The notes under the pieces were generated by a model. That model searched no databases and was not told the origin of the DNA. It saw only the letters and a list, made by a program, of their open reading frames with translations. From Stutzerimonas stutzeri (GTDB taxonomy: Bacteria; Pseudomonadota; Gammaproteobacteria; Pseudomonadales; Pseudomonadaceae): 64,000 bases of DNA. The stretch is from positions 62,001-126,000 of the forward strand of contig NZ_JAMOIC010000006.1 in the NCBI RefSeq assembly GCF_024448895.1. The letters run 5' to 3'. A program made the translations under genes and the position numbers. Shown piece after piece: positions 10,885-36,563 of the stretch. The stretch's first letter is position 1, and every line of letters starts with the position of its first letter.

Positions 10885-11193
10885 GCTCCGTTGCGCTAGA
10901 TGGTGGTTGCCAATAGTCAAAGCCCGCTACGCCTTCAGGGATGCCGGATTTTGCCTGTTTGTTGTGATCCCTTGAAGGATTTATCGAGAAAGAACGCGGC
11001 AAGGCGGAGGGAAAGGCGGAGGGCAAGATAAAAGGAGCCTGCACGAGCAGGTGCTGGGAGCGCGTCTGCACATGGGGTTGGGGAAGCACGCCGGCTCAAG
11101 CGTCCGTGCCTTGCAGGGGTGCAGGCGGCATTTTCAGGGCATCACAGCGGTGTCACCACGCTGCGCCACGCTGATCTGGGAGCAGTCAAAAAC
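10885..11193. other. Intergenic region between traF and relaxase, candidate oriT
   Basis: About 310 bases directly upstream of the relaxase gene. They contain a tandem repeat AAGGCGGAGGG at 11001-11011 and 11013-11023, then a small inverted repeat CCTGC-ACGA-GCAGG at 11038-11051. Repeats next to a short palindrome upstream of a relaxase gene are typical of transfer origins, but I cannot identify a nic site with confidence. No gene is supported here. Confidence 0.45.
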
Positions 11194-13131
11194 ATGGCCA
11201 ATCGACGCACCAAGAAAGCCGACGACCCGTTTCGGCCACAGGTAGGCCCGCCTCGCCAGCGAGGCGAGTCCTTTATCACCCAGATCGTCCGGCAGACGAG
11301 CAGGTCGGGTGCGGCCAGCCGCAAGGGGCGACATCAGCCTGGCGCTCGCCTAGGTCGTGGCCACGTCGCCGCCCGGATGAATGCCAGCAGCCCACGGGGG
11401 CGGCGTGTCACCGTCAAGACCCGTCTTGTGAATCTGGGTAAGGCTGGCGGTCGCTCAACGGCAACGCATTTGCGCTATATCGAGCGCGAAGGCGTAGGCC
11501 GAACCGGTGAACAAGGACGAGCTTACACACCGATAGACGACCGGGCGGACCTAAGCGCTTTTGAAACCCGGGGCCGGCAGGATAGGCATCAATTCCGATT
11601 GATCGTATCGCCCGAAGATGCCGAGTCTCTTGATGACCTGCGCCGCTACACCCGGCACCTGATGGAGCGCGTCGAGTCCGACCTGGGCACACGCCTTGAC
11701 TGGGTTGCCGTCGATCACTGGAACACCGATAACCCCCACACGCATGTCGTCATCAGGGGCGTGGACGACACGGGCAGAGATCTGGTGATTTCAAGGGACT
11801 ACATCGCCCATGGCATGCGGATGCGCGCCTGCGAACTGGCAACCGAATGGCTCGGGCAGCGCAGCGAACGGGAAATCCAGCTCGTCCACGTACGCGAAGT
11901 GAACCTTGAGCGGCTGACTGGCCTTGACCGCACCCTCCTGAAAGAAGGCCGAACCGCCGATATAGCGGTGGGACAGCTCAACCGGTATCCACATCGACAG
12001 CAACTGATTGGACGCCTGCAGCATCTCAACCGCCTCGGGCTGGCGCATGAGTCAGGGCATGGGCGCTGGCACATCGAGGAATCGACCGAACGAACCTTGC
12101 GGGCATTGGGAGAACGGGGCGACATCATCCGCACGATGCAGCGCGCCCTTGCCGGCTCAGACCGAGAGCTCAGCGTCCATGAGCCCGGCGCTGCCGCTGC
12201 CATAGTCGGTCAGCTGCTCGCCAAGGGCCTCGCAGGCGAGTCGCATGACCGGGGTTACCTGATTGTTGACGGCACCGATGGAAAGGCCCACCACCTGCCG
12301 CTTGCCCACACCGCCGATCTTTCAGCCTATCCGCTCGGCGCAATCATTGACGCCCGCTCGTCCCGAGTGCCAAGGGATATGGACAGACAATTGGCCTCGC
12401 TGGCGCCGGACGGCTGGTATCGAAGGGAGCACCACAAACTCCAGATGTTGGCTCAGGCTGGTAACGCTGCGGACCCGGACTTCGTGCTCGATGCCTACGA
12501 GCGCAGACTCGAGGCCCTGCGTCGCTCCGGTATCGTTGAACGATCAGGCGATGGCCACTGGCGGATTCCGCGTGATCTGGTTGAGCAAGGCCAACGCCAC
12601 GACGCGCAGCGCACCGGGGACATGCACGTCACGGTGCGTGCGCGGTTGTCACTCGAGAGGCAGATCCGGGCACTGGGCGCCACATGGCTTGATGGCCAAC
12701 TCATTGCGGGAAGCGCGACGCTTGCCGACAGAGGTTTTGGCGCCCAGGCGAGGATGGCGCTGGCCAAACGCGCCGACTTTCTGATTGAACAGGGTCTGGC
12801 CAAGCGTGAGCACCAACGCGTGTTGCTCGCGCCAAATCTGCTTTCAACACTGCGTGAGCGGGAGTTAGAAACAGTTGGCCGCAGGCTGGCCGGTCAGTTG
12901 GGAAAGCCTCATCACCCAACCCTCGATGGGCGGCCCGTCAATGGCATCTATCGCCGGCAGGTCGAGCTTGTCAGTGGCCGCTACGCGCTTCTGGAGACCG
13001 ACTCCGGCTTTAGCCTGGTGCCGTGGAAGCCGGTGATCGAGGCAAGGCTCGGCCAGTCGATCGCCGCCGTCATGCGGGGCGGCCAGGTGTCCTGGCAGCT
13101 AGGGCGATCGCGCAGCCCTACGATCGGCTGA
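11194..13131 (+). CDS. traI: Conjugative relaxase (TraI/VirD2-like, DUF3363)
   Basis: A 645-residue protein from the ATG at 11194, which has GGGAGCAG about nine bases upstream. The N-terminal domain carries the metal-binding three-histidine motif of relaxases at His175, His182 and His184 ('DHWNTDNPHTHVVIRG'), with a 'LRYIEREG' segment before it that may hold the catalytic tyrosine. The long C-terminal part matches the DUF3363 region of relaxases in Tn4371-like ICEs. It should nick oriT and pilot the strand to the coupling protein TraG. The downstream neighbour in the standard backbone is traG, but here about 9 kb of cargo intervenes. Confidence 0.88.
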   Translation: MANRRTKKADDPFRPQVGPPRQRGESFITQIVRQTSRSGAASRKGRHQPGARLGRGHVAARMNASSPRGRRVTVKTRLVNLGKAGGRSTATHLRYIEREGVGRTGEQGRAYTPIDDRADLSAFETRGRQDRHQFRLIVSPEDAESLDDLRRYTRHLMERVESDLGTRLDWVAVDHWNTDNPHTHVVIRGVDDTGRDLVISRDYIAHGMRMRACELATEWLGQRSEREIQLVHVREVNLERLTGLDRTLLKEGRTADIAVGQLNRYPHRQQLIGRLQHLNRLGLAHESGHGRWHIEESTERTLRALGERGDIIRTMQRALAGSDRELSVHEPGAAAAIVGQLLAKGLAGESHDRGYLIVDGTDGKAHHLPLAHTADLSAYPLGAIIDARSSRVPRDMDRQLASLAPDGWYRREHHKLQMLAQAGNAADPDFVLDAYERRLEALRRSGIVERSGDGHWRIPRDLVEQGQRHDAQRTGDMHVTVRARLSLERQIRALGATWLDGQLIAGSATLADRGFGAQARMALAKRADFLIEQGLAKREHQRVLLAPNLLSTLRERELETVGRRLAGQLGKPHHPTLDGRPVNGIYRRQVELVSGRYALLETDSGFSLVPWKPVIEARLGQSIAAVMRGGQVSWQLGRSRSPTIG

Positions 13132-14002
13132 AGGCTAGAACGTCGTCGGCGGTCTGTTCTTCTGGATCAGCCAGCCATCGTTCGAACCGAGTGCTCTGAG
13201 GATGCTCTGGTTTAGCTGCGTAGTAGACAAGCCGCAGGTCTCGATCGACGTCGATGGTCAGCGAGGTGTGATCGAACACCACTTGGCCTACGCGGTCGAC
13301 CTGCAAATGCCGGACGCCCTGGCAGGGACCATGGATATCCTGCTGGCGCCACCAGGTCCTGAAATCCGTATCAATCTTCTCCAAGTCCTTGACCAGCGCT
13401 CCGATATCCGGGTCCTGGGCCGCCCGGACAAAATCGCGGCGAAAGCTCGACAGGATTTGTAGCGCCTGGTCATCCCATGGATCGAACAGTGCGCGCATTG
13501 AAGGCGCAGTGAATAGCATCCACAGCAGGTTGCGGCGCTCGGCTGGAGTGCGTGAAAAGCCGAACAGCTTGTCCGCTGCCGCGTTCCATGCCAGCACATC
13601 CCACCGCAGGTTCAGCACATAGGCCGGGCGCAGGGGCAGATCTCCCATCAGCCGATGCACCAGGGGCGGCACCATGCACCACGTCTTGCCAGGCTCCGGT
13701 GGCAGCCGCTGGTGAGCGAGGAGGAACAGGTAGCGACGCTCGGTCGCATCCAGCTTGAGCGTTCTGGACAGATTCTCCAGAAATTGAGCCGATACGCCGA
13801 TCTCCCTGCCCTGCTCCAGCCAGGTGTACCAGGACAAGCCCACCCCTGCCAGCGCAGCAACTTCCTCGCGACGCAGTCCAGGCGTGCGGCGCCTTGTGCC
13901 GGCCGGCAGGCCAACTTCCTCTGGGCTAATTCGCTCGCGGCGATTGCGCAGGAAGTCAGCCAGCTCTGCTCGGTTTCGCTCAAGGCTGCGCGGCGCGCTC
14001 AT
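13118..14002 (-). CDS. XRE-family regulator with MmyB-like ligand-binding domain
   Basis: A 294-residue protein from the ATG at 14002, with GGAGG eight bases upstream. Residues about 10-75 form the HTH: 'LADFLRNRRERISPEEVGLP', 'RTPGLRREEVAALAGVGLSWY' and 'WLEQGREI'. From about 95 the MmyB-type sensor domain follows, with 'YVLNLRWDVLAWNAAA' and 'NLLWMLFTAPS'. In this family the C-terminal domain is thought to bind a small ligand, and regulators often control a divergent neighbour. Here the neighbour is the ALAS operon, with start codons 141 bases apart. Its 3' end overlaps the relaxase end by 14 bases, convergently. Confidence 0.82.
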   Translation of the reverse strand: MSAPRSLERNRAELADFLRNRRERISPEEVGLPAGTRRRTPGLRREEVAALAGVGLSWYTWLEQGREIGVSAQFLENLSRTLKLDATERRYLFLLAHQRLPPEPGKTWCMVPPLVHRLMGDLPLRPAYVLNLRWDVLAWNAAADKLFGFSRTPAERRNLLWMLFTAPSMRALFDPWDDQALQILSSFRRDFVRAAQDPDIGALVKDLEKIDTDFRTWWRQQDIHGPCQGVRHLQVDRVGQVVFDHTSLTIDVDRDLRLVYYAAKPEHPQSTRFERWLADPEEQTADDVLAFSRS

Positions 14003-14026
14003 CCGGTTACCTCCAGTAATAGCATA

Positions 14027-14130
14027 AACGGTCAAATTGTAACCCTATCGAAGCGGTACTAAGAATACCTCCTGTCGCCTGTAAGGCGCGACCCAGAGGG
14101 CTAGCTCGCGCCATGGCGACCTTGACCGTT
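14027..14130. promoter_or_regulatory. Divergent promoter region with paired AACGGTCAA inverted sites
   Basis: The nonamer AACGGTCAA is at 14027-14035 and its exact reverse complement TTGACCGTT at 14122-14130. One copy sits near the start of the XRE gene and the other just before the ribosome binding site of the ALAS gene. This symmetric placement fits an operator pair for the divergent regulator, but binding is inferred only. Confidence 0.4.
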
Positions 14131-14143
14131 CAGGAGAATATGG

Positions 14144-15376
14144 ATGTACCAATCAATACTTCGCCAACAGCTGGAGTTACTGAAGTCCTCCAACCAGTAC
14201 CGCACGTTCACCACGTTGAGTCGCATCTGTGGACAGTACCCGCTGGCCAAGCTCGAAGGTGCGCCGGACACGCCAGTCGTGGTGTGGTGCAGCAACGACT
14301 ACCTCGGTATGTCGCAGCATCCGCTTGTACGCCAGCAGATGCATCTGGCGCTCGAGACCTACGGGGCGGGTTCCGGCGGCTCTCGCAATATCGGCGGGTC
14401 ACATGAACTGTATGCACGGCTGGAAAGCAGCCTGGCCGATTGGCACGACAAGGAAGCGGCACTCGTCTTTCCAACCGGGTTCGGGTCGAACGACGCAACG
14501 CTGCAATGCCTGTTGAGGCAGATCCCCGACTGTGTCGTCGCCAGCGATGAACGGAACCACGCCTCCATCGTCAATGGCATCCGTGCGACGCCCAACGAGC
14601 GCCGGGTTTTTCGTCACAATGATGTGGCCGAACTCGAACAGATCCTCTCGGCTTATCCGATCGATCGGCCCAAGCTCGTTGTCTTCGAATCGATCTACTC
14701 CATGGACGGCGACATCGCTCCCATTGCGCAGATCGTCAAGATCGCCAAGCGGTTCAATGCACTCACCTACCTCGACGAAGTCCACGCGGTAGGCATGTAC
14801 GGTCCTCGAGGCGCTGGCATTGCCGCGAAACTTGGCGTCGCCGACCAGGTGGACATCATCCAAGGCACCATGGCCAAGGCAATCGGGGTGATCGGTGGAT
14901 ACATAGCCTCGACACAGACGCTCATCGATGCGGTTCGATCGTTCGCAACGGGATTCATCTTCACCACCTCCTTGCCTCCGGCCATCACCGCCGGCTGCCT
15001 GGCCAGCATTGAGCATCTCAAGACCAGCTCCGCCGAGCGCGAGCAGTTGCATCGCAGCTCAGGCATGCTGCGTGAACGCCTAGGCCAGCATGACATCCCG
15101 GTCATGCGCTGTTCCCAGACGCACGTGCTACCGGTACTTGTTGGAGATGCCGAGCGTTGCAAGGCGGCTGCGCATCGTCTGCTGAACGTCCATGGCATCT
15201 ACCTGCAGCCGATCAACTCTCCCTCGGTTCCGGTTGGCACCGAACGCTTCCGAGTCAATGCAACGCCCAACCACGACCTGAACCAGATCGACCATCTGGC
15301 CGCTTCGTTGCGCGAGACGTTCGACCATTTCGCGATCCCGCTGGCCTCGCAAGCGTTTGCAGCGGAGGTGGCGTGA
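14144..15376 (+). CDS. hemA: 5-aminolevulinate synthase (alpha-oxoamine synthase family)
   Basis: A 410-residue PLP enzyme; AGGAG lies seven bases before the ATG at 14144. ALAS condenses glycine with succinyl-CoA to 5-aminolevulinate. Visible landmarks are Arg20 in 'YRTF' (succinate carboxylate contact in the family), 'VWCSNDYLGM', His139 (PLP stacking), Asp211/His214 in 'TYLDEVHAVGMYG', and the Schiff-base Lys245 in 'GTMAKAIG'. Similarity to alphaproteobacterial HemA runs over the full length. Two residues that are threonine in those enzymes are serine here: Ser80 in 'GSGGSRNIGG' and Ser361 in 'SPSVPVGTERFR'. Pseudomonads normally make ALA from glutamyl-tRNA, so this copy is best seen as a pathway gene. 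It opens an operon with GNAT, oxidoreductase and asparagine synthetase-like genes. The symbol hemA here means the ALAS type, not glutamyl-tRNA reductase. Confidence 0.88.
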   Translation: MYQSILRQQLELLKSSNQYRTFTTLSRICGQYPLAKLEGAPDTPVVVWCSNDYLGMSQHPLVRQQMHLALETYGAGSGGSRNIGGSHELYARLESSLADWHDKEAALVFPTGFGSNDATLQCLLRQIPDCVVASDERNHASIVNGIRATPNERRVFRHNDVAELEQILSAYPIDRPKLVVFESIYSMDGDIAPIAQIVKIAKRFNALTYLDEVHAVGMYGPRGAGIAAKLGVADQVDIIQGTMAKAIGVIGGYIASTQTLIDAVRSFATGFIFTTSLPPAITAGCLASIEHLKTSSAEREQLHRSSGMLRERLGQHDIPVMRCSQTHVLPVLVGDAERCKAAAHRLLNVHGIYLQPINSPSVPVGTERFRVNATPNHDLNQIDHLAASLRETFDHFAIPLASQAFAAEVA

Positions 15377-15879
15377 TGACCAGCTCGTTGTTTTTAGTAC
15401 GGCTCGCCACGGCCGACGACATCGCCGCGCTGACCGAACTCAGGGCCCTTCTGCTGGACGGCACCGGAGCAAGCTATTCCAGCCGCACCCCCGAGGACGC
15501 AGCGAAGTGGCGTGCGGCCTACAGGAGCTGGCTTGCGGGCGTGCTTGGCACACACGACAACGTCCAGATCCTGGTCGCCGAGCATCGAGCGTCGAAGCAG
15601 CTACTCGGCTGCGCGACGGGCATCATTGATATGAGGGCGCCCACCTCGGCAAACCCCAACGGCCAGAGCGGTTGGGTCCAATCGGTGGTGGTTGCCCAGC
15701 CGTGGCGCGGGCGCGGAATCGCGAACCAGTTGATGCAGGTACTGCTTCGCTGGTTCGCCAATCGGGACGTGGCAACCATTGCTCTACAGACCACAGACGG
15801 GGCGTCCGGGCTCTACGGCAAGCTCGGGTTCGCACCCAGCGGGGAGTGCCTTCTGGTCCGCCAGGAGGTACCGACATGA
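15376..15879 (+). CDS. GNAT-family N-acetyltransferase
   Basis: A 167-residue acyltransferase. The start ATG overlaps the ALAS stop (TGATG), which implies coupled translation. The acetyl-CoA binding motif A is visible as 'VQSVVVAQPWRGRGIANQLM' at about residues 97-116, followed by the late 'LYGKLGFAPSGE' element. GNAT enzymes acylate amines, and the amino group of aminolevulinate or a later intermediate is an obvious candidate here. It could also inactivate the product inside the producer (self-protection). The substrate cannot be read from the sequence. Confidence 0.85.
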   Translation: MTSSLFLVRLATADDIAALTELRALLLDGTGASYSSRTPEDAAKWRAAYRSWLAGVLGTHDNVQILVAEHRASKQLLGCATGIIDMRAPTSANPNGQSGWVQSVVVAQPWRGRGIANQLMQVLLRWFANRDVATIALQTTDGASGLYGKLGFAPSGECLLVRQEVPT

Positions 15880-16949
15880 AGGTGCTGATCATTGGACTGG
15901 GCTACGCAGGCGATCGTTTTCGTCGCGCATTCGAACATGCAGCGAGCCAAACAGGTGTTTCGGTCTCGCTCGCCTATGTAGGGCGCCAGCAGAAGCCAAC
16001 GGCATTGCGCTACTTCGATCGCATCGATGGCGCACTGCAGGATTTCAATCCCGACATCGTGGTGGTCAGCGTCAACGACATCAGCCACGCGAGCGTCTTG
16101 TGCGAACTGGCCGAGTACGAAGGCTTCGTCATTTGTGAAAAACCGCTCACGGCGCCGGCAGATGAACTTGCGAGCGTAGGAGCGGCACTTGCTCAGGTCC
16201 GCGGGTTTGCGCTGAACCTGATCGAGCGCTATTCGAATGCCACGCAGGCGCTACGCGACTGGGTCGCTCGTCATGGCTGGCAACCCGTTCGCGCCAGTTT
16301 TTACTGGGGCAAGGACCGTCTCAACGACTATCGGCCAACCTGCGGTGTTACCAGTGAAGCAATCCACGCGCTGGACCTTCTGAGCTGGATCTGTCCAGCT
16401 GCAGGGCCGCTACGCCTGAGCGATGCAATCGGCATCCGGTCTGACTTCTCGGTATCAGGCGATGCCGTACTCGACACCGTTCAGCTTAGTGCAACGCTCG
16501 GTGACACGCCGATAGCCGGGTATAGCAGCTTCGTCAGCGTGGTTCGGCAGCGCACGGTCGACTTCACGTTTGTCGATCAGGAAGACCAGTTGATTCATGC
16601 GCGGCTGACCTTCGACACACCGCGATGGGATCACGACCATCTTCGGATCTGGATGCGCGACACCGACGGCAGCGAACTCGTCCTGCACGACCTTCGTGTC
16701 TCTCTCGTGCAACCAGGGTTAGAAACGCTCAGTAAGCTCTCGAAGTTCTGCCAGCAGGTGCTGCAGTGGGTCACGCTGCGGCAGCAGCCCCCTGCCCCGC
16801 CCTTCGCCAGCCTGGACGAATCGCTTGACCTCCAACGGCTGCTCAATGAACTCGAGCGCCGTGCCCGCACGCCCGCGCCAGCACGCTACAACCACGGCGC
16901 GACTCGCTCGTTGCTGGTTGAAAGCAGCGACCTTGAAGTCCTCGGTTAA
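15876..16949 (+). CDS. Gfo/Idh/MocA-type NAD(P)-dependent oxidoreductase
   Basis: A 357-residue protein; its ATG overlaps the GNAT stop and follows an AGGAGGT. The N-terminal Rossmann start 'MKVLIIGLGYAGDRFRRAF' holds a GxGxxG-like nucleotide site. 'DIVVVSVNDISHASV' and 'VICEKPLTAPADELA' follow, the latter containing the EKP motif typical of the family. A helical/beta substrate domain with 'GVTSEAIHALDLLSWI' provides the usual DxxxH-like region. It probably reduces or oxidises a carbonyl or imine intermediate of the pathway. No sugar genes are nearby, so the usual sugar substrate is doubtful. Confidence 0.8.
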   Translation: MKVLIIGLGYAGDRFRRAFEHAASQTGVSVSLAYVGRQQKPTALRYFDRIDGALQDFNPDIVVVSVNDISHASVLCELAEYEGFVICEKPLTAPADELASVGAALAQVRGFALNLIERYSNATQALRDWVARHGWQPVRASFYWGKDRLNDYRPTCGVTSEAIHALDLLSWICPAAGPLRLSDAIGIRSDFSVSGDAVLDTVQLSATLGDTPIAGYSSFVSVVRQRTVDFTFVDQEDQLIHARLTFDTPRWDHDHLRIWMRDTDGSELVLHDLRVSLVQPGLETLSKLSKFCQQVLQWVTLRQQPPAPPFASLDESLDLQRLLNELERRARTPAPARYNHGATRSLLVESSDLEVLG

Positions 16950-16969
16950 TAGATCAGCAGGAGAAGACC

Positions 16970-18823
16970 ATGTGTGGAATAGCAGGATGGCTTTCGTTCG
17001 GCCAAAACATGCAGACGCAACGAGACACGCTCCAACGAATGACCGAGACGATGTCCAAGCGAGGTCCTGACGCGGGAGGCCTATGGATCGATGGCCCGAT
17101 AGGGCTTGGCCATCGCAGGCTGTCGATCATTGATCTTGAGGGTGGTCGCCAACCAATGCTGGCTCGTCGTGACGATGGCCTAGAAGCTGCGGCCATAACC
17201 TATAGTGGCGAGGTCTACAATTTCCGTGAGCTCCGTGCCGAGCTGAAGGTTCTTGGCCATCGGTTCGAGAGCCATAGCGATACCGAAGTTGTCCTGCGTG
17301 CCTACGTCGAATGGGGTGAAAGCTTCGTCGATCGACTCAACGGCATGTACGCCTTTGCGCTATGGGATTTGCGCACCCGCGAACTGCTGCTGGTACGCGA
17401 CCGTATGGGCGTCAAGCCGCTGTTTTACTATGAGACGGCCGACGGCGTAGTGTTTGGGTCCGAACCCAAGGCATTGCTAGCCAACCCGCTCGTTCCGCGT
17501 ACCGTGCGGGCCGATGGGCTTCGCGAGCTGCTCGAGATGGTGAAAACGCCGGGACAAGCCATCTTTGAGGGGATGCGCGAGGTCCTGCCGGGTGAGGTCG
17601 TACGATTCAATGGGCACGGCTCACATCGCCGTCGGTATTGGCAGCTCGAGGCGCGCGAGCACGCCGATTCGCTCGATCAGACCATACGGTATACGCGCGA
17701 CCTGCTTGAAGACATAGTCCAGCGGCAGATCGTTTCGGACGTCCCTCTGTGCAGTCTGCTCTCCGGCGGGCTGGACTCATCCATCATCACGGCTCTGGCG
17801 TCTAAAAAACTGTTGGCCGCCGGCAAGCAGAACATCCGCTCTTTCTCGGTCGATTTTGTCGATCACGGCAGTGCATTTGCCCGCGACGCCGTGCGCGGCA
17901 CCCCCGATGCGCCCTACGTCCGTGACCTCGTCGCGCGCATTCACTCGACCCACAACGAAATTGTGCTCGACAGTGGCGAGTTGGGCGATCCGGCCCTACG
18001 CAGCCTGGTCGTACAGGCACTGGATCTGCCACCCGCTTACTGGGGCGACATGTGGCCTTCGCTGTACCGATTGTTTGAACGGGTGCGCCAGCATTCCACC
18101 GTGGCCTTGTCCGGAGAAAGCGCCGACGAGGTCTTTGGCGGCTATCGCTGGTTTCACGATCCGGTGGCGATCGAGGCGCAAACGTTTCCTTGGCTGACGT
18201 CCGTGACGGGCAAGTATTTCGACGGCAAGACCCTGTTCGATTCCACCCTGCTGAATCAGTTGGATATGCCGGGCTTCGTGCAGGACAGCTACAGCCAAGC
18301 AATAGCCGAAACGCCTGTCCTCGCGAGCGAAAACACCACGGAACGGCGCATGCGCCAAATGAGCTACGTCAACCTGACCCGGTTCGTCCAGACGCTGCTC
18401 GACCGCAAGGATCGAATGAGCATGGCGGTCGGCCTTGAGGTCCGGGTGCCATTTTGCGATCACAGGCTAGTCGAGTATGCGTTCAACATTCCCTGGGAAA
18501 TGAAGGCCTTCGACGGGCGAGAAAAAAGCATCCTGCGCGCGGCAACACGCGACCTCCTTCCCGACTCCATCGCCGATCGGGTCAAGAGCCCCTACCCATC
18601 AACGCAGGACCCTGCCTACGAACTGGCGCTACGCACTTCCCTGGCGCACATCATGGCCAGCGACAGTGCTCCCGTACGTGCGCTACTGGACGTATCGAAG
18701 GTCAAGCACACGCTGGACAGAGCGGTAGGCGCGTCATCGCCCATGCATGAGCGCATGGGCATGGAGCTCGCGGTTGGGCTGAACACCTGGCTGACCGAAC
18801 AGGACGTCACCCTCGACCTGTAA
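16970..18823 (+). CDS. Asparagine synthetase-like glutamine amidotransferase (AsnB type)
   Basis: A 617-residue two-domain enzyme with AGGAG before the ATG at 16970. The N-terminal class II glutaminase begins with the required Cys2 ('MCGIAGW'), then 'RGPDAGG' and 'YSGEVYNFRELR'. The synthetase domain has the ATP pyrophosphatase loop 'LLSGGLDSSII' near residue 265, 'LSGESADEVFGGY', and 'VRVPFCDHRLVEYAF'. Length and motifs match full AsnB. The family transfers ammonia to an adenylated carboxylate; relatives in natural-product pathways amidate or cyclise other acids. In this operon the carboxyl group of aminolevulinate or a derivative is a reasonable substrate, but plain asparagine synthesis cannot be excluded. 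A 20-base gap separates it from the oxidoreductase. Confidence 0.88.
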   Translation: MCGIAGWLSFGQNMQTQRDTLQRMTETMSKRGPDAGGLWIDGPIGLGHRRLSIIDLEGGRQPMLARRDDGLEAAAITYSGEVYNFRELRAELKVLGHRFESHSDTEVVLRAYVEWGESFVDRLNGMYAFALWDLRTRELLLVRDRMGVKPLFYYETADGVVFGSEPKALLANPLVPRTVRADGLRELLEMVKTPGQAIFEGMREVLPGEVVRFNGHGSHRRRYWQLEAREHADSLDQTIRYTRDLLEDIVQRQIVSDVPLCSLLSGGLDSSIITALASKKLLAAGKQNIRSFSVDFVDHGSAFARDAVRGTPDAPYVRDLVARIHSTHNEIVLDSGELGDPALRSLVVQALDLPPAYWGDMWPSLYRLFERVRQHSTVALSGESADEVFGGYRWFHDPVAIEAQTFPWLTSVTGKYFDGKTLFDSTLLNQLDMPGFVQDSYSQAIAETPVLASENTTERRMRQMSYVNLTRFVQTLLDRKDRMSMAVGLEVRVPFCDHRLVEYAFNIPWEMKAFDGREKSILRAATRDLLPDSIADRVKSPYPSTQDPAYELALRTSLAHIMASDSAPVRALLDVSKVKHTLDRAVGASSPMHERMGMELAVGLNTWLTEQDVTLDL

Positions 18824-18830
18824 CCCGACC

Positions 18831-18855
18831 GGGCGCGGCCCGGCGGGCTGCGCCC
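18831..18855 (+). promoter_or_regulatory. GC-rich hairpin between the AsnB-like and MFS genes
   Basis: GGGCGC... / ...GCGCCC arms, nearly complementary over 12 bases with almost no loop, stand between the asnB-like stop and the MFS start. There is no T-run. It may be a processing or partial-termination site that sets different expression of the exporter. Confidence 0.3.
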
Positions 18856-18877
18856 CCTAATTTGTGGAGCGTCTGCA

Positions 18878-20086
18878 ATGAACAACCCCTCTCCCAACCA
18901 CCAGCTATCCGTCTACCTGATCGCCCTCGGCGCGTTCTCGCTGGGCATGGCCTCCTATGTGACAGCGGGGCTTATTCCGCTAATCGAATCATCGTTCTCC
19001 GTATCGGTCGCCGTCGCGGCGCAGCTTGTTACGGCCTTCACCCTGGCTTATGGCCTCGGGTCGCCGATATTCGTAGCGCTGACACCGCCTGACCGGCAGC
19101 GCACCGGGCTCCTGATCGCACTGGGCTTATTCGTACTGGCGAACGCGGCAAGCGCCATCTCTACGGACTTCATGGCTCTGGTCGTCTGGCGGGCCGTTAC
19201 CGGCATCGGTGCCGGTGTCTACCTTGCAATGGGAATCGGCGCTGCCACCGCGCTCTCACCGCCCGAGCGCCGCGGCAAGTCGATTGCGCTCATTATGGGA
19301 GGGATGGCCAGCGGCGTCGTGCTGGGCGTCCCCCTGAGCCTTATGATTGCCGAGCGTATGGGGTGGCAAGCAGCCCTATGGCTGGTCACCTTGCTCGGCC
19401 TGATGGCGTTTGCCGGGCTGATGATTAGACTGCCCCGGCTACCGGCGGCGCCGGCGAGCTCACTTCGGCAGAAGATGGCAATTCTTGCCGATGGTCACGT
19501 CATGACCATTCTGCTTGTTTCACTGCTGGCAGCCGTCGCGAGCCTAGGCATGTACACCTTTATCGCCCCGCTGCTCGCAGACCCCGACCACGGCGCCGTC
19601 CGCTCGGTTACGCCCTATCTCTGGATATGGGGCATCGGGGGCGTGCTGGGCAGCTTTCTCGTGGGCCCGATAGTGGATCGCGTCAGGGGACCGGTTCTGG
19701 TCTTCGCCATTATGGCCATTCTCTCGGCATCGCTCTTCCTGCTGCCGTTTGCTGCGGGGTCAGGTTCCTGGCTGGTTGCTATCCCCATCGTTGTCTGGGG
19801 GGCGGTTGGCTGGGCGCTTCAGGTCCCACAGAACAACGAACTGATCCTGGCCCGGCAGGCGCAGGGAGACGGAAACCTTGCCATTGCCCTGAACGAGTCA
19901 GCGCTCTACCTGGGCAGCGCCATCGGTGCGGCAGCAGGTGGTTTCGTCCTCCTGCTTCGGATGCCGACGTGGTCGCTTGCCGCCTGTGCGGGATCAGTTG
20001 CCCTGGCGGGTGCATTGCTTCAGATCCTGAACCTGAGACGCCAGGAAGGCTCGCGGTGCGTCAGCCAGCCTGAACTCAACCATTGA
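18878..20086 (+). CDS. MFS exporter (DHA1/AraJ-like)
   Basis: A 402-residue inner-membrane protein with about 12 hydrophobic segments. The first loop and helix 4 region reads 'GAGVYLAMGIGAATALSPPERRGKSIALIMGG', with the 'PPERRGKS' loop between helices 4 and 5 resembling drug:H+ antiporter members. A second set of six helices begins near residue 205. It belongs to the AraJ/PbuE/ChlR-like exporter branch. Its place after the biosynthetic-type genes suggests it secretes the pathway product or gives resistance to it. GGAGCG stands about nine bases before the ATG. Confidence 0.85.
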   Translation: MNNPSPNHQLSVYLIALGAFSLGMASYVTAGLIPLIESSFSVSVAVAAQLVTAFTLAYGLGSPIFVALTPPDRQRTGLLIALGLFVLANAASAISTDFMALVVWRAVTGIGAGVYLAMGIGAATALSPPERRGKSIALIMGGMASGVVLGVPLSLMIAERMGWQAALWLVTLLGLMAFAGLMIRLPRLPAAPASSLRQKMAILADGHVMTILLVSLLAAVASLGMYTFIAPLLADPDHGAVRSVTPYLWIWGIGGVLGSFLVGPIVDRVRGPVLVFAIMAILSASLFLLPFAAGSGSWLVAIPIVVWGAVGWALQVPQNNELILARQAQGDGNLAIALNESALYLGSAIGAAAGGFVLLLRMPTWSLAACAGSVALAGALLQILNLRRQEGSRCVSQPELNH

Positions 20087-20105
20087 CCGGGCCGGAGAGA
20101 CAATC

Positions 20106-21047
20106 ATGGAATTACGTCATCTTCGCTGTTTCGTTGCGGTCGCCGAGGAGTTGCATTTCGCTCGTGCTGCGGAGCGGCTACACATCGAGCAGTCACCGCT
20201 GTCGAGGATCATCAAGGATCTTGAGTACAAGCTGGGTGTGCAGTTGTTTGAGCGAACCACCCGCCGTACTCGCCTGACGTGGGCGGGTACCGTTCTGCTG
20301 GCAGAGGCAAGGCGGATATTCGCGGTCGTCGACCAGGCGCGGGCCAGCGTCAAGGGCGCGGCCTCGGGTTACCGTGGGCGCTTGCGCGTCGCGCTGTCTG
20401 ACGGCGTACCGCAATCACGGCTGGCAGCGCTTCTGGCGCTCTGCCGAGAAGAGGATCCCGACGTTGAGATCTGCCTGCACGAAGTCCCATCGTCAGCTCA
20501 GGTTAAGGGGCTTCAGGAAGACCTGTTCGACGTCGGCCTTGCCCAGCGTGCCGGCCTGGCGGAAGGCTTAACCGCGCTTCCGGTCTGGCTGGACCCGCTG
20601 GTTGTGGCGCTACCGGCTCGGCACCAGTTGCTGGCGCACCGCACCATTCCGCTCGAGGCGCTCACGCGGCATCCGCTGGTGCTTTGCGACCCGCAGGTGT
20701 GTGAGGGATTCTGGCAGCAGTTGCTGTGTGTTCTTAAGCCCATCGAGTCTAGGCTCACGATCGCTGAACGAGTGCCGACGCTCGACTTGATGATGGCCCT
20801 CGTGGCAGCCGGTTACGGGTTGGGCTTTTCGAGCTTGGCGCGCATAACCGAACTGAACAACCCCGACGTCGTCGCCCGTCCGCTCGCAGGCCAAGGGGCA
20901 ACCCTTACCACCTTTCTGGTCAGGCGCAGCGGCGAACCCTCCGAACAGTTGAATCGGTTCATCGACAGGGTGACCGGTAATGAGCATGACGATGCGCGAG
21001 CTACACCCTGCGACGCGACGCCAAGCGTATGCGAGGCTCGGTCATGA
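20106..21047 (+). CDS. LysR-family transcriptional regulator
   Basis: A complete 313-residue LysR protein. The N-terminal winged HTH is 'MELRHLRCFVAVAEELHFARAAERLHIEQSPLSR' (start and pattern only), followed by the linker helix and a substrate-binding domain with 'YRGRLRVALSDGVPQSRLAALL' and 'VAAGYGLGFSSLA'. It is only 19 bases behind the MFS gene on the same strand, so it may be the last gene of the cargo operon. LysR regulators normally act on a neighbouring operon with a pathway ligand as coinducer, which would make it the second regulator of this cluster beside the XRE protein. Confidence 0.88.
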   Translation: MELRHLRCFVAVAEELHFARAAERLHIEQSPLSRIIKDLEYKLGVQLFERTTRRTRLTWAGTVLLAEARRIFAVVDQARASVKGAASGYRGRLRVALSDGVPQSRLAALLALCREEDPDVEICLHEVPSSAQVKGLQEDLFDVGLAQRAGLAEGLTALPVWLDPLVVALPARHQLLAHRTIPLEALTRHPLVLCDPQVCEGFWQQLLCVLKPIESRLTIAERVPTLDLMMALVAAGYGLGFSSLARITELNNPDVVARPLAGQGATLTTFLVRRSGEPSEQLNRFIDRVTGNEHDDARATPCDATPSVCEARS

Positions 21048-21104
21048 CCTGGCGTGTTTCAGACGAACCAGAACGGGAGCAGCATATTGATCCGCTGTTT
21101 TTGC

Positions 21105-21140
21105 CTGCAGATACAAGGAGTGCTATATTTGTATCTACAG
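21105..21140 (+). promoter_or_regulatory. Operator-promoter of the Xre/RES toxin-antitoxin operon
   Basis: An inverted repeat with arms CTGCAGATACAA (21105-21116) and TTGTATCTACAG (21129-21140) matches at 11 of 12 positions. It encloses a likely -10, TATATT at 21125-21130, with an extended TG before it and a TTGCCT 18 bases upstream as -35. The start codon of the antitoxin is 24 bases after the right arm. Binding of the antitoxin here would repress the operon, the usual autoregulation of Xre/RES pairs. Confidence 0.75.
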
Positions 21141-21163
21141 ACACAGCAGAGAAGCCTCCCGCC

Positions 21164-21568
21164 ATGACAGCATTCCCCCAGGCACAGGCGTTCACGAAGG
21201 ACCAGTGCGCTACGGGTCTTAGGGCCGCCGTCGCCATTCTGGAAAAATGGCAGGCGACCACCGAGCAAGCGTGCGACATCCTGCGCGTTTCGCGCAGCAC
21301 GCACGCCCGCGCCAAGTTGCGCAATCGGGAGTGGTCCGTCAGCCTCGACTCGGACCAGATGCAACGGGTCAGCTTTATCCTGAACATACACGCTGCGCTG
21401 CGACTGATATTCGACAATCCCGAGAACGTGTACGGCTTTGCGGCCATGGCGAACCACAACGAGTTCTTCAACGGGCGCTCGCCTCTAGAGGTAATGGCCC
21501 AAGGTGACATGATCTCGCTGTACGAGACGTACCGCCGGATCGACAGCCTGCGAGGCGCTCAGTGGTAG
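21164..21568 (+). CDS. Xre/MbcA/ParS-family antitoxin
   Basis: A 134-residue protein from the ATG at 21164, which lies just after the operator; the frame is open from 21029 but that part runs through the promoter. The N-terminal half is the Xre-like HTH ('AILEKWQATTEQACDILRVS'). The C-terminal half is the MbcA/ParS toxin-binding part, with 'LNIHAALRLIFDNPENVYGF' and 'FNGRSPLEVMAQGDMISLYE', a strong family signature. It neutralises the RES toxin encoded by the overlapping next gene and probably represses the shared promoter. It sits between cargo and traG and would stabilise the element. Confidence 0.9.
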   Translation: MTAFPQAQAFTKDQCATGLRAAVAILEKWQATTEQACDILRVSRSTHARAKLRNREWSVSLDSDQMQRVSFILNIHAALRLIFDNPENVYGFAAMANHNEFFNGRSPLEVMAQGDMISLYETYRRIDSLRGAQW

Positions 21569-22254
21569 CTCCGAACGAGCTACCGAAGCGCCCGGGCGGC
21601 CAGCGCCAGGCCTTTCGGCTGGTCAATTCGAAGTTTCCGCCGATCGCGCTGTTTGACGACGTAGCCAACGCAGACGAATTCGAGACCCTCTATCAGCTGC
21701 AGGCGCTAACCAACCCGCGCCTGCAGAATGAAACGGGCCGCCTTGAGCTGATCGCACGCTCCGAGATCCCATTTGGAATTCCAGGCTGCTCGTATGCGAC
21801 AGCGCCATTTACGCATGTGAATCCGGCGGGCTCACGCTTCAGTGATGGCTCGTATGGGGTGCTGTATCTGGCAAGCACCATGGACACGGCGCTTGCCGAA
21901 GTTCGGTATCACCAGGACCGGTACTGGTCGAACGTGGATGCGCTGAGCTACGAGCGGTTCGTCTTTCGCGGCCTGGCTTGCCAGTTCGACGAACGCGAGA
22001 TGCTTGATGCGACCGCTGTCGCGGTGACCGATCCTGTCTACGATCCCGACGACTACAGCGCCGGGCATCGTCTGGGCCGTCTCGTCAAAGAGGGAGGATA
22101 TCCAGGGTTGCGCTACCGATCGGTGCGCAGGCCGGGCTCGGATTGCTGGGCACTCATGACGCCCAGGCCGGTGTCTTCGATCGTCCAGACCGCTCACTTC
22201 GAAATGATTTGGAACGGCCGGATATCCAGCGTCAGTACCCTCAGCGAAATCTGA
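21562..22254 (+). CDS. RES-domain toxin (MbcT/ParT-like)
   Basis: A 230-residue protein starting at the GTG that overlaps the antitoxin stop. The conserved RES residues are present: Arg92 in 'GSRFSDGSYG', Tyr102 and Glu113 in 'YLASTMDTALAEVRYH', and Ser187 in 'LRYRSVRRPG'. RES toxins consume NAD+ by phosphorolysis or ADP-ribosylate a target such as Prs. The order antitoxin then toxin with overlap is the rule for this family. All catalytic landmarks appear intact, so the toxin is likely active. Confidence 0.9.
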   Translation: MVAPNELPKRPGGQRQAFRLVNSKFPPIALFDDVANADEFETLYQLQALTNPRLQNETGRLELIARSEIPFGIPGCSYATAPFTHVNPAGSRFSDGSYGVLYLASTMDTALAEVRYHQDRYWSNVDALSYERFVFRGLACQFDEREMLDATAVAVTDPVYDPDDYSAGHRLGRLVKEGGYPGLRYRSVRRPGSDCWALMTPRPVSSIVQTAHFEMIWNGRISSVSTLSEI

Positions 22255-22443
22255 GCAAGAAATTGCGCGGTACGCTGGCGCATGACTGATGCTGCCCCCT
22301 AACGCCTGCCGTTTCCCACGTTTGTTTTCTTGCCGCTCCTGCCACAGCACCCACCGAAACGGTCTTTGAACGGTTGACGCGCATTGGCGAACCTCCCGTA
22401 CGTGGCGCAGCTAAGTGCCGCGACAACGGGGGGTGGTTCTGCG

Positions 22444-24429
22444 GTGAAACAGGCATCGAACGTGCTGTACGGACAGATCCTGGTGGTGTCGTCCACTGTG
22501 CTGCTTGGCACCTGGAGCGCGACCCAGTGGGCTGCCTCGGCGCTTGGCTACCAGCATCGGCTAGGCACGCCCTGGTTCGATCTGTTTGGCGTACCGGTCT
22601 ATCACCCCTGGCGCCTGTTTGACTGGTGGTTTTTCTTTGGGCCGTACGCCCCCGATGTATTCGATGTCGCGGGAGCGATTGCTGCCGCCAGCAGCGGCGC
22701 GTCGCTCATCGTGGCGGTCGGCATGGCGCTGTGGCGAGCGCGACAATCACGGCGCGCCACGACCCATGGTTCGGCTCGCTGGGCCACGCCAGACGAGGTG
22801 GTCGCGGCCGGTCTCACCACGGGCTCCGGCGTGTTCCTGGGTCTGCATGAACGTCGCTATCTACGTCACGATGGCCCGGAGCACGTGTTGGCCTTCGCCC
22901 CGACCCGCTCGGGCAAGGGCGTCGGCCTCGTGGTTCCGACGCTTCTCTCCTGGCCGGCCTCCGCTGTCGTTCACGATATCAAGGGCGAGAACTGGCAGCT
23001 CACGGCAGGCTGGCGCTCGAAGTTCTCTCACTGCCTGCTGTTCAACCCGACCGACCCGGCGTCCGCCGCCTATAACCCGCTGCTGGAGGTTCGCCGAGGC
23101 AGTCACGAGGTTCGGGACGTACAGAACATTGCCGATATCCTTGTTGATCCCGAAGGTGCGCTCGAGCGCAGGAACCATTGGGAGAAAACCAGCCATGCGC
23201 TATTGGTCGGCGCCATCCTTCATGTGCTCTACGCCTGCGAGGACAAGACACTGCGGGGTGTCGCAAACTTCCTGTCCGACCCGACCTGCACGTTCGAACT
23301 GACCCTGCATCGCATGATGGGCACCACGCACCTGGGCGAGTCTCCACACCCGGTGGTGGCGTCCGCGGCCAGAGAGGTGCTGAACAAAAGCGAGAATGAA
23401 CGCTCCGGCGTGCTCTCGACTGCCATGTCGTTTCTTGGTCTCTACCGGGACCCGACGGTGGCGCGCGTGACCTCACGCTGCGATTGGCGCATCGCCGACC
23501 TGATTGCTGCCCGGCATCCGGTTTCGTTGTACCTGGTGGTTCCCCCGTCCGATATCAGTCGAACCAAGCCGCTGATTCGATTGATTCTGAACCAGATCGG
23601 AAGACGGCTGACCGAGTCGCTCGATGGTGCGGACGGCATCGAGCGCAAACACAAACTGCTGCTGATGCTCGATGAGTTCCCGGCGCTCGGGCGGCTGGAC
23701 TTCTTCGAGTCGGCGCTGGCGTTCATGGCCGGCTACGGGCTGCGGGCCTTTCTGATTGCGCAGTCACTGAACCAGATCGACAAGGCCTACGGGCAAAACC
23801 ATTCGATACTGGACAACTGCCACGTTCGAGTCACGTTCGCCACCAACGACGAGCGCACTGCCAGACGCATTTCCGAAGCGCTTGGTATGGCAACTGAGAT
23901 TCGCGCCCAGCGCAACTATGCAGGCCATCGTCTCGCTCCCTGGCTCGGCCATCTCATGGTGTCTCGCCAGGAAACGGCTCGGGCTCTGCTGACGCCGGGT
24001 GAGGTCATGCAGCTGCCACCCGCCCAGTCGGTCGTCATGCTTTCGGGGCATCCACCGATCCGTGCACAGAAGCTTCGCTATTACGACGACGCGAACTTCA
24101 CCAGGCGCGTGTGTCGGGCGCCCTGGTTGGCGCCAGACACCTATATCGATGCTCCATCGCCCAGCCCGGATGACTGGACCGCCCTCATCGCGCCGGCGAT
24201 ACGTACGCGATTGTCTTCCGAAGGCGCGCCCGATGCTGACGCCGATGACGAGGACGGTGGGCCGTTGCGTCAGTGGACGCCGGCGCAGCCCGCCCAGGAC
24301 CCGGACAGCGACCTGAACCTACTGGACGATGATCAAGACGCGTCCTGCTCGGCTCACCAACCAAACCGGTCCGCAAACCGGCAAACCTGGACCGCCCTGC
24401 CGGACCCCGACGACGGAATCATCCTATGA
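22444..24429 (+). CDS. traG: Type IV coupling protein TraG/VirD4
   Basis: About 661 residues from the GTG at 22444; a TTG at 22384 is an alternative start. The GTG reading gives 'MKQASNVLYGQILVV', which resembles the beginnings of TraG in Tn4371-like elements, and GGGGGTGG precedes it. Two N-terminal membrane segments are followed by the Walker A 'APTRSGKGVGLVVPTLL' at about residue 150, 'VHDIKGENW', and the Walker B 'LMLDEFPALGRLDF' near 408. It is an inner-membrane hexameric ATPase that links the relaxosome to the secretion channel. It overlaps the next gene by four bases. Confidence 0.92.
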   Translation: MKQASNVLYGQILVVSSTVLLGTWSATQWAASALGYQHRLGTPWFDLFGVPVYHPWRLFDWWFFFGPYAPDVFDVAGAIAAASSGASLIVAVGMALWRARQSRRATTHGSARWATPDEVVAAGLTTGSGVFLGLHERRYLRHDGPEHVLAFAPTRSGKGVGLVVPTLLSWPASAVVHDIKGENWQLTAGWRSKFSHCLLFNPTDPASAAYNPLLEVRRGSHEVRDVQNIADILVDPEGALERRNHWEKTSHALLVGAILHVLYACEDKTLRGVANFLSDPTCTFELTLHRMMGTTHLGESPHPVVASAAREVLNKSENERSGVLSTAMSFLGLYRDPTVARVTSRCDWRIADLIAARHPVSLYLVVPPSDISRTKPLIRLILNQIGRRLTESLDGADGIERKHKLLLMLDEFPALGRLDFFESALAFMAGYGLRAFLIAQSLNQIDKAYGQNHSILDNCHVRVTFATNDERTARRISEALGMATEIRAQRNYAGHRLAPWLGHLMVSRQETARALLTPGEVMQLPPAQSVVMLSGHPPIRAQKLRYYDDANFTRRVCRAPWLAPDTYIDAPSPSPDDWTALIAPAIRTRLSSEGAPDADADDEDGGPLRQWTPAQPAQDPDSDLNLLDDDQDASCSAHQPNRSANRQTWTALPDPDDGIIL

Positions 24430-34896: not shown

Positions 34897-35109
34897 ATGA
34901 ACCGTACCGAATGTCAGCCAACTCGCGCCACAAACCTCATGGTGGATGCCAAAACGCTGTCCCGGACAGTCGGCGTCAGCGTCCCGACGTTGTATCGCTG
35001 GATGGGTGAGTTGGGCTTCCCGCGCCCCATCAAGCTTTCCGCCCGCTGCTCGCGCTGGCCTATGGCCGATGTCGAGGAATGGATCGAGAGTCGAAAGGCG
35101 TCGTCGTAG
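34897..35109 (+). CDS. alpA: AlpA-family excisionase/regulator
   Basis: A 70-residue protein from the ATG at 34897, with AAGAGGA about eight bases upstream. It is a compact winged helix: 'LMVDAKTLSRTVGVSVPTLYRW' then 'FPRPIKLSARCSRWPMADVEEW'. AlpA-type proteins activate or direct excision with P4-type integrases. Its last 50 bases overlap the 3' end of the convergent integrase gene, so the two mRNAs are antisense to each other over that stretch. Confidence 0.85.
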   Translation: MNRTECQPTRATNLMVDAKTLSRTVGVSVPTLYRWMGELGFPRPIKLSARCSRWPMADVEEWIESRKASS

Positions 35110-36307
35110 CGGCTAGATGGTCGAGATAATCGGCCCATCGCTGCATCATGTCCCGGCGCTGATCGACATACAGTGCATGGTTGTAGGCGCCGCGCACTTT
35201 GTTGTCGTCGGCATGAGACAGTTGCGCTTCAATCCATGGACTCGGATAGCCCATTTCATACAGAGCGGTAGACAGCGTGCCGCGAATTCCATGGCCCGTG
35301 AGCTTGTCGCCATATCCCATGCGCCTGATTGCGGTATTCAGCGTATTTTCGCTTAGCACCTTGCTCGGGTCGTTACGGCCCGGAAGAAGCAGGTCGTACT
35401 GCCGAGTGAACACCTGAATGGCTTTGACCACCTCGACCGCCTGAGACGATAGAGGAACAAGATAATCCGGTACGTCCGCACCCTCTGCCTTCACCCGCTT
35501 GCGCAACTGTTTGACCGAGCCTGCAGGAATCGACCAGACCCGGCTGTTAAGCTCGAACTGTTCATGACGTGCGTGACGGATTTCGGCGGTTCGCACGCCG
35601 GTGAGCAGCATCAACTCCACTGCCAACCGCACCAGCAACGAACCGTGATATGCCCTAAGCGTTCGGACAAACTCGCCTAACTCATCGAGCTTGAGCCAGG
35701 GATTGTGCTTAACCGGAGGCTGTTCGGCAGCAACGATGTCAAGATCCGTAGCCGGATTCACTTCCACGTATTCGTGGACCATCGCGTAGCGGAAAATCTG
35801 ATGTAGCCAGGTGCGTACCTTTTCCGCGACATTCAGAGCTCCGCGTTCTTCTACTGCGCGGATTACATTAAGAACGTCGGACCTTCCCACCTCTGCAATA
35901 GGGATATCCCCAATGAGCGGAAGAATATCCTTGTCCAGGTAACGTCGTGCTTGCGCTGCCGAACCCTTGCGGCCCTGCGTAAGACGAGGGGTTCTAAAGG
36001 CGTCCCAATCGTTCGCAACCTGTCGAAAGGACACCAAGCGCGGCGATTGTTCCGGCTCTGCCCTCGGATCAATCCCAGCTGCAACCTTCCGCCGAGCCTC
36101 CTCTCGGCGCAACCGCGCGTCCTTGAGAGACACCTCAGGGTAAGTGCCTAGCGAGACGCGGTGGGCCTTACCGCTTGCTCGGTACCGGAAATGCCAGTAC
36201 TTGCCGCCTCGAGGATGGACGAACAAGGCCAGTCCATCTCCGTCAGCAACTGTGTACGCCCTGTCCTTGGGCTTGGCTTGGCGTACTGCCGTATCGGTGA
36301 GCGCCAT
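35060..36307 (-). CDS. int: P4-type tyrosine integrase
   Basis: A 415-residue tyrosine recombinase with the DUF4102 arm-binding N-terminus ('ALTDTAVRQAKPKDRAYTVA' and 'FRYRASGKAHRVSLGTYPEV'), a core-binding domain, and a catalytic domain with Arg in 'LTGVRTAEIRHARHE', the HxxR box 'GHGIRGTLSTAL', and 'QLSHADDNKVRGAYNHALY' holding the last His and the nucleophilic Tyr. It is transcribed away from tRNA-Leu and begins 172 bases from the tRNA 3' end, the typical arrangement of tRNA-targeting islands. This is not the integrase type that usually accompanies the Tn4371 backbone. Confidence 0.93.
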   Translation of the reverse strand: MALTDTAVRQAKPKDRAYTVADGDGLALFVHPRGGKYWHFRYRASGKAHRVSLGTYPEVSLKDARLRREEARRKVAAGIDPRAEPEQSPRLVSFRQVANDWDAFRTPRLTQGRKGSAAQARRYLDKDILPLIGDIPIAEVGRSDVLNVIRAVEERGALNVAEKVRTWLHQIFRYAMVHEYVEVNPATDLDIVAAEQPPVKHNPWLKLDELGEFVRTLRAYHGSLLVRLAVELMLLTGVRTAEIRHARHEQFELNSRVWSIPAGSVKQLRKRVKAEGADVPDYLVPLSSQAVEVVKAIQVFTRQYDLLLPGRNDPSKVLSENTLNTAIRRMGYGDKLTGHGIRGTLSTALYEMGYPSPWIEAQLSHADDNKVRGAYNHALYVDQRRDMMQRWADYLDHLAATTTPFDSRSIPRHRP

Positions 36308-36478: not shown

Positions 36479-36500
36479 TGGTGCGGACGGAGAGACTCGA
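36479..36500. other. Attachment site (att) of the island at the 3' end of tRNA-Leu
   Basis: The tRNA 3' end faces the integrase gene, as in islands that integrate with a P4-type recombinase. The other copy of the core repeat should stand at the far end. I searched the left part of the window by eye for the 3'-end sequence (GCGGACGGAGAGACTCGAA) and did not find it, so that end is outside. The exact core length cannot be set. Confidence 0.6.
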
Positions 36501-36563
36501 ACTCTCACACCTTGCGGCGCCAGAACCTAAATCTGGTGTGTCTACCAATTCCACCACGTCCGC
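36479..36563 (-). tRNA. tRNA-Leu (anticodon UAG)
   Basis: On the minus strand the gene begins GCGGACGTGG and ends with an encoded CCA at 36481-36479. A long variable arm is present, as in leucine tRNAs, and the anticodon loop reads TTTAGGT with anticodon TAG. The acceptor stem GCGGACG / CGTCCGC is complete, so the inserted element restored the gene. The integrase lies immediately downstream, which makes this 3' end the attachment site. Confidence 0.95.

Follow-up and report, generated by a model that had tools for sequence, protein, structure and literature searches.

What does a mobile gene cassette make when it sets a 5-aminolevulinate synthase (ALAS) homologue beside an acetyltransferase, an oxidoreductase-like enzyme and an amidotransferase? 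The question is raised by a 64,000-nucleotide stretch of Stutzerimonas stutzeri DNA (contig NZ_JAMOIC010000006.1, positions 62,001 to 126,000; hereafter the window), in which an earlier note had placed such a cluster, with an exporter and two regulators, in the slot between relaxase and traG genes. The answer favored here, with a rough probability of 0.68, is that the cassette specifies an alaremycin-type (alm) pathway to which an amidotransferase has been added, and that a conjugative element carries it as cargo. The exact compound is less certain than the type of pathway.

All seven reading frames are open, and together with Pfam and NCBIfam matches they bear out the gene positions, the tight packing, the divergent XRE/MmyB gene and the relaxase–traG slot of the earlier note. 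The ALAS stop codon and the ATG of the GNAT-family gene overlap by one base and the GNAT and Gfo/Idh genes by four; gaps of 20, 54 and 19 bases separate Gfo/Idh from the AsnB-like gene, the latter from the major facilitator superfamily (MFS) gene, and MFS from LysR. The proposed neighborhood search for the ALAS-GNAT-Gfo/Idh-AsnB order was made with the AsnB-like protein in public genomes, where the best 80 of 437 relatives were examined: in 34 of the 80 loci the four genes occur collinearly with MFS (the ALAS match being partial in L030 and L044). A divergent XRE orthologue accompanies 33 of these 34 (L034, which has no XRE match, begins at a contig end), an adjacent LysR orthologue of more than 60% identity accompanies 26, and a relaxase match abuts the XRE gene in 18 (that of L044 is a 7% fragment). 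Three further loci, all actinobacterial, hold the five genes with ALAS inverted, and in the other 43 GNAT or Gfo/Idh is missing, neither being detected at 1e-8; several of the 80 loci end at contig ends, and absence of a gene here means absence within the locus DNA examined.

The Gfo/Idh protein has matches at 1e-50 in 32 places, spread over 30 of 348 Pseudomonadaceae genomes, and the ALAS at 1e-80 in 35 places, spread over 33 of them; this survey, like those of the genus, of Streptomyces and of actinobacteria below, scored part of the first-pass candidates in many genomes, so that weak matches may have been missed. At 31 of the 32 Gfo/Idh places ALAS lies on the same contig within 2 kb, at most 768 bases off (in G577 and G688 as a partial match). 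What is left at the exception (L186 in G463) is part of Gfo/Idh, AsnB, MFS and LysR, with no ALAS, GNAT or XRE seen there. The four ALAS places lacking Gfo/Idh comprise two broken genes (G020, G037) and two distant ones (G464, G491; 47% identity). The seven-gene grouping is not due to chance, which the 34 collinear loci and the 31 adjoining places exclude, and the suggested refutation, that these genes occur singly elsewhere, fails in the Pseudomonadaceae sample. The two broken loci are decayed in different ways: in G020 (L187) the front of ALAS is joined to the rear of AsnB, in a 400-contig draft where an assembly error is possible, and in G037 (L020) ALAS is interrupted.

Within the genus, ALAS is found at 1e-100 in 13 of 56 genomes, the source genome included, and is truncated in two; such patchy presence fits what is expected of cargo. 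The source genome itself contains a second, diverged cassette (G000:C8:155087-162990; L007, L008) immediately outside a further conjugative element, at its trb end, with identities of 83% for ALAS, 64–67% for GNAT, 74–75% for Gfo/Idh, 84% for AsnB, 82% for MFS and 86% for XRE. An alphaproteobacterial metagenome-assembled genome carries an ALAS nearly identical to that of this second copy (L025) and a cyanobacterial one an ALAS lying within the Pseudomonas group (L046); misbinning is likely in both.

The core of the cassette is presumably that of the alaremycin (alm) pathway, in which serine and succinyl-CoA are condensed and the product is N-acetylated and dehydrated; as in that pathway, an ALAS homologue, a GNAT enzyme, a third enzyme and an exporter form one unit here. 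Alaremycin biosynthesis by the alm genes (AlmA, AlmB, AlmC) of Streptomyces sp. A012304 was reportedly described by Okui et al. in 2025. By analogy, the ALAS-like enzyme would condense L-serine with succinyl-CoA to 5-amino-6-hydroxy-4-oxohexanoate, the GNAT enzyme would acetylate the amine of this amino ketone, and the Gfo/Idh enzyme, with NAD(P) as a bound cofactor, would bring about a net dehydration to the 5,6-enamide, i.e., alaremycin (5-acetamido-4-oxo-5-hexenoate). The AsnB-fold enzyme would then activate the free side-chain carboxylate with ATP and transfer ammonia from glutamine, giving 5-acetamido-4-oxo-5-hexenamide, which the MFS pump would export, providing self-protection, under control of the MmyB/XRE and LysR regulators. 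The product may mimic 5-aminolevulinate (ALA) and hit porphobilinogen synthase directly or once the amide is lost; alaremycin displaces ALA in that enzyme (PMC12670364; PMC13402209). The claim of a single biosynthetic unit with ALAS-type condensation, probable N-acylation, amide formation and an exporter is thus supported by the gene set, as is the amide half of an "amide or cyclised" product, whereas "ALA-derived" is probably wrong in detail, the predicted intermediate being a serine-derived, hydroxymethyl analogue of ALA.

The placement of the ALAS-like protein bears on the first step. In a tree of 76 ALAS rows, midpoint-rooted for drawing only, it falls in a 51-row group (support 100/98) composed of 43 rows from proteobacterial AsnB-containing modules, three from AsnB-less Streptomyces clusters and five from plasmids; L001–L005 (with exceptions), L010, L020, L021, L030, L044, L102–L108 and L116–L144 were left out, as were rows shorter than 330 residues or below 40% identity. 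Outside this group lie HemA (6 rows), a C5N side (12), actinobacterial AsnB-containing clusters (4) and further Streptomyces (3); the C5N-side label combines tree position with neighboring reading frames judged by eye, and L148, L150, L151 and L160 have no clear C5N neighbors. The further Streptomyces type (L161, L163 and L164 on a deep branch of the tree, and L162) has ATP-grasp-like and, in some, TauD-like reading frames nearby, as judged by eye.

In the alignment the window ALAS keeps the catalytic residues checked. In the numbering of R. capsulatus ALAS, positions 83, 149 and 365 correspond to S80, I146 and S361 of the window protein. All 51 group rows have Ser at position 83, as do the other 4, 12 and 3 non-HemA rows, against Thr in all six HemA rows. 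Position 149 is Ile, with one Val, across the 51 rows (42 Ile and one Val in the 43 proteobacterial module rows), Leu in ten and Met in two of the 12 C5N-side rows, and Val in two of the six HemA rows; at position 365, the 43 AsnB-containing and the 12 C5N-side rows have Ser. Residue 83 reportedly directs which amino acid an ALAS accepts (PMC4525017); T83S fits serine use, being compatible with it and no proof of it. In both residue 83 and tree position the window protein is not HemA-like.

Of the middle enzymes, the Gfo/Idh protein has the Rossmann GxGxxG motif, the EKP lysine and the catalytic His, and a Ser that aligns, by eye, with the catalytic Asp of inositol dehydrogenase. Among the structures closest to its model, dehydrogenases of sugars or polyols predominate; the list shows the fold only and leaves room for an unlisted family, and the dehydration role of the protein is a guess. 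The AsnB-like protein has as its nearest PDB sequence the hydroxyamidotransferase 7ylz, which we take to be TsnB9 (563 bits, E 5.6e-168, over residues 1–607 of 617), versus 152 bits (E 1.8e-43) for E. coli AsnB (1ct9). All 22 aligned sequences have Cys2 and an unchanged SGGLDSS motif. Since beta-lactam synthetase-like cyclases have lost the N-terminal Cys nucleophile, the enzyme is expected to transfer ammonia and not to form a lactam, and it does not look like a cyclase of that kind. For SaHAT, a related AsnB-fold enzyme, ATP activation of a free carboxylate is described (PMC13418202); TsnB9 is reported to have been misannotated earlier as an amidotransferase (PMC11160463).

In a quick AsnB tree made without bootstrapping (L001, L022, L007, L008, L009 and rows shorter than 540 residues excluded, with L002 as the second copy), the rows of proteobacterial modules fall together with support of 86, under the 95 mark, and the actinobacterial rows form a second group (99). 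AsnB-like proteins 69–71% identical to that of the window stand in other Pseudomonas gene groups (L054, which by eye has an HpaB-like gene as its neighbor, L055, L057 and L058) and probably amidate other acids, so that this enzyme type may serve several acids. A distant paralogue of 34% identity is also encoded in the source genome (G000:C10:68702-70471; L003).

Clusters that do without AsnB suggest how the last step relates to the rest. ALAS is found at 1e-90 in 40 of 392 genomes of the genus Streptomyces, and three loci of this sample (L145, L146 and L147, the last an 8.8-kb contig) have ALAS-GNAT-Gfo/Idh-MFS and no AsnB, with an ALAS 65–67% identical to that of the window; two more actinobacterial loci with the core and without AsnB (L183, L184) come from a survey in which four of 394 class genomes match Gfo/Idh at 1e-40. 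Among 72,556 plasmid records, six match Gfo/Idh at 1e-20 (three of Parageobacillus, two of S. capitis and one of Rahnella), and the core ALAS-GNAT-Gfo/Idh-exporter is present on one Parageobacillus stretch, one Rahnella stretch and both S. capitis records; no AsnB match was found in three plasmid stretches carrying the core. Because the same ALAS clade occurs elsewhere with GNAT and Gfo/Idh and without AsnB, AsnB looks like a modular last step added to the core pathway. In four actinobacterial clusters (L060, L061, L062, L149) the ALAS that accompanies GNAT-Gfo/Idh-AsnB-MFS is inverted and belongs to the C5N-side lineage; either this set was assembled separately or its ALAS was swapped, suggesting that an ALAS is needed and was recruited, or swapped in, twice.

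On plasmids of Priestia and Macrococcoides, an ALAS occurs with a DMT transporter nearby and no GNAT or Gfo/Idh match. The plasmid "hemA" of Parageobacillus, Priestia, Rahnella and Macrococcoides (L165–L168) falls in the window ALAS clade, not with heme HemA. The S. capitis plasmids (L178, L169), from a skin staphylococcus, are mobilizable, about 9.3 kb in size and taken up mostly by the AsnB-less cassette (LysR, GNAT, Gfo/Idh, MFS, ALAS); in strain H17 the ALAS is unannotated and matches in two pieces.

The window cassette resembles the alaremycin system in its ALAS homologue, GNAT enzyme, third enzyme and exporter, and its ALAS resembles those of AsnB-less Streptomyces clusters; it differs in the added AsnB-fold amidotransferase, the downstream LysR gene and the conjugative element. 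The sequence kinship shown is that with the AsnB-less clusters. The earlier impression that the combination was not a recognized one holds for the set with AsnB and not for the core, which matches the alaremycin pathway; the amidated variant of the alaremycin-type cassette would, we infer, be new.

Several observations weigh against this reading. Ser at position 83 is not specific for serine use, being found in 12 of 12 C5N-side and three further Streptomyces rows, and is reportedly indispensable for cyclization by the asukamycin C5N enzyme (PMC4525017). Position 365 is Thr in all three AsnB-less Streptomyces rows and four of the five plasmid rows, so that the active site of the window ALAS differs from the alm-like ones, and in the ALAS tree the 43 AsnB-containing proteobacterial rows are not a single clade (three changes are needed). 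Most reactions of Gfo/Idh enzymes are hydride transfers that interconvert alcohol and ketone. With 496.8 bits, the AsnB-like protein exceeds the NCBIfam cut-off for asparagine synthase (TIGR01536, 267.1 bits); this would agree with the housekeeping asparagine synthetase that had been named as a refutation, but TIGR01536 is a broad model that does not separate natural-product amidotransferases here, and the far higher score against 7ylz than against 1ct9 speaks for the other side. A second HemB, sought in the host genome as a self-resistance gene, is rejected, as a single match was found; self-protection would therefore need export, the amide form or control.

Two alternatives differ from the alm-type scheme in what the ALAS makes. 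If the enzyme used glycine, ALA itself would be formed, N-acetylated, altered by Gfo/Idh and amidated to another ALA-derived amide, e.g., an N-acyl amino alcohol. The strong ALAS profile match, the retained catalytic residues and the sugar or polyol dehydrogenases nearest to the Gfo/Idh model are consistent with this, but Ser rather than Thr at residue 83 in 43 of 43 proteobacterial module rows and the C5 route to ALA already present in the host make it unlikely. A C5N pathway, in which ALA would cyclize to 2-amino-3-hydroxycyclopentenone and AsnB would replace the acyl-CoA ligase as the earlier note had supposed, is less probable still. Four markers of cyclizing ALAS have been given, T83S, I149L/V, D231T and T365S (PMC4525017), and the window shares T83S, T365S and a setting in secondary metabolism with asukamycin-type clusters. 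However, it retains Ile at 149 instead of Leu, Val or Met, its ALAS belongs to a separate tree group, and Pfam shows neither a ligase of the AMP-binding type nor an amide synthetase domain in the ten genes that span 11119 to 22254; on these grounds the C5N ring is rejected, the cyclized half of the predicted product finds no support, and the absence of AsnB from sister clusters argues against its standing in for the ligase. In the D231T column, the window has Ala228 where the R. capsulatus numbering used gives Glu, not Asp.

The other two concern the end and the purpose of the pathway. Were the AsnB-like enzyme to act as its nearest solved relative, the hydroxyamidotransferase, the product would be a hydroxamic acid. 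The trichostatin and benzohydroxamate enzymes (TsnB9, SaHAT), to which the window protein is a full-length AsnB-fold relative, do act on free carboxylates, but TsnB9-type enzymes use glutamyl hydroxamate supplied by TsnB6/7 (PMC13418202), and no oxygenase domain was detected in the cluster genes by Pfam (TsnB6/7 not having been searched for by sequence, here or genome-wide); a plain amide is expected and a hydroxamate is very improbable. That the ALAS feeds only heme or porphyrin synthesis, its neighbors being unrelated cargo, might be read from the hemA annotation of ALAS genes of the window group in public plasmid records. This is hardly credible in view of the co-inheritance of the cassette genes, and is rejected because the ALAS groups apart from HemA and the host has its own glutamyl-tRNA reductase (GluTR): one GluTR match and one HemB match were found, so that with the C5 heme route the cassette ALAS is not needed for heme.

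Returning to the alaremycin-type pathway with amidation, its predicted end product, the amide of alaremycin, is presumably primocarcin, an old antibiotic from Nocardia. Primocarcin has been an orphan antibiotic since the 1960s, and no gene cluster for this compound is known to us. A tentative extension, somewhat less likely to be right than wrong, is that the cassette is the primocarcin cluster, the amide being a delivery form whose synthesis and export spare the producer and which rivals take up and deamidate to alaremycin, the inhibitor of porphobilinogen synthase; the pathway would be carried conjugatively in Pseudomonadaceae and, in an AsnB-less version, on plasmids as small as the 9.3-kb mobilizable one of a human skin staphylococcus. 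Were the proposed pathway right, there would be a testable gene set for this antibiotic, and an anti-heme antimetabolite pathway with two modular versions, acid and amide, would be spread on conjugative elements and plasmids in Pseudomonadota, Bacillota and Actinomycetota. Public annotation is touched as well, since some plasmid "hemA" genes of Bacillota and Rahnella fall with the cassette ALAS rather than with heme HemA. No account of primocarcin, of alm genes or of such a cargo or cluster was found in the open-licence literature, the only print covered.

The features of the cassette and its carrier are collected in Table 1.

Table 1. Cassette genes and landmarks of the carrier element in the window.
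Feature	Positions	Strand	Basis
RlxS-like relaxase	11119..13131	+	NCBIfam RlxS 627.8 bits (below the 850-bit cut-off); Pfam DUF3363
MmyB-like XRE regulator	13118..14035	-	Pfam MLTR_LBD 1.1e-40, HTH_31; divergent
Putative divergent promoter/operator region	14003..14143		Conserved block adjoining XRE start; alignment of 34 intergenic regions
ALAS-type alpha-oxoamine synthase	14144..15376	+	TIGR01821 535.5 bits (cut-off 338.55)
GNAT N-acetyltransferase	15376..15879	+	Pfam Acetyltransf_1 3e-11
Gfo/Idh/MocA-fold enzyme	15876..16949	+	Pfam; Rossmann GxGxxG
AsnB-fold glutamine-dependent amidotransferase	16970..18823	+	Pfam Asn_synthase, GATase_7
MFS exporter, Cmx/CmrA-like	18878..20086	+	Pfam MFS_1 1e-33; NCBIfam cmx_cmrA 174.1 bits (under the 400-bit cut-off)
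LysR-type regulator	20106..21047	+	Pfam LysR_substrate, HTH_1
TraG/VirD4 coupling protein	22384..24429	+	Pfam T4SS-DNA_transf 4.1e-100
Tyrosine integrase	35060..36307	-	Pfam Phage_integrase, Arm-DNA-bind_3; adjoins tRNA-Leu
tRNA-Leu	36479..36563		Beside integrase

For the XRE gene the likely start codon is the ATG at 14002, eleven codons into the frame as called from a TTG. No inverted repeat of at least 6 bases with a gap of at most 12 was found in the XRE–ALAS intergenic region. The block is conserved across the 34 aligned intergenic sequences, many of them close kin and that of the window taken from 14006, and this conservation points to shared autoregulation.

The cassette is placed between the RlxS-like relaxase and TraG/VirD4 genes, on an element that also has RepA, a ParA-like gene (by eye), an S26 peptidase and trb-type genes (some by eye). 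The order repA-parA-traF-rlxS-cargo-traG-trb with an integrase is, we presume, that of Tn4371-like integrative and conjugative elements; the window has this order and an integrase, with parA and some trb genes assigned by eye and the RlxS profile match under its cut-off. It shares with such elements RepA, ParA, the S26 peptidase, the RlxS-like relaxase, the cargo slot, TraG and the trb-type genes, but its integrase has Arm-DNA-bind_3 and adjoins tRNA-Leu. For the ends of the element, no repeat of the tRNA-Leu region of at least 16 bases was found within the window; when 18 kb more upstream was searched, the best upstream match was one of 14 bases, inside the element. Positions 13000–21100 gave no megablast match in the plasmid collection, and Gfo/Idh none at 1e-20 in the phage collection. 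The same cargo slot also houses, at 21029–22254, an Xre-like HTH protein (below the Pfam cut-off) and a RES-domain protein, which resemble a toxin-antitoxin pair.

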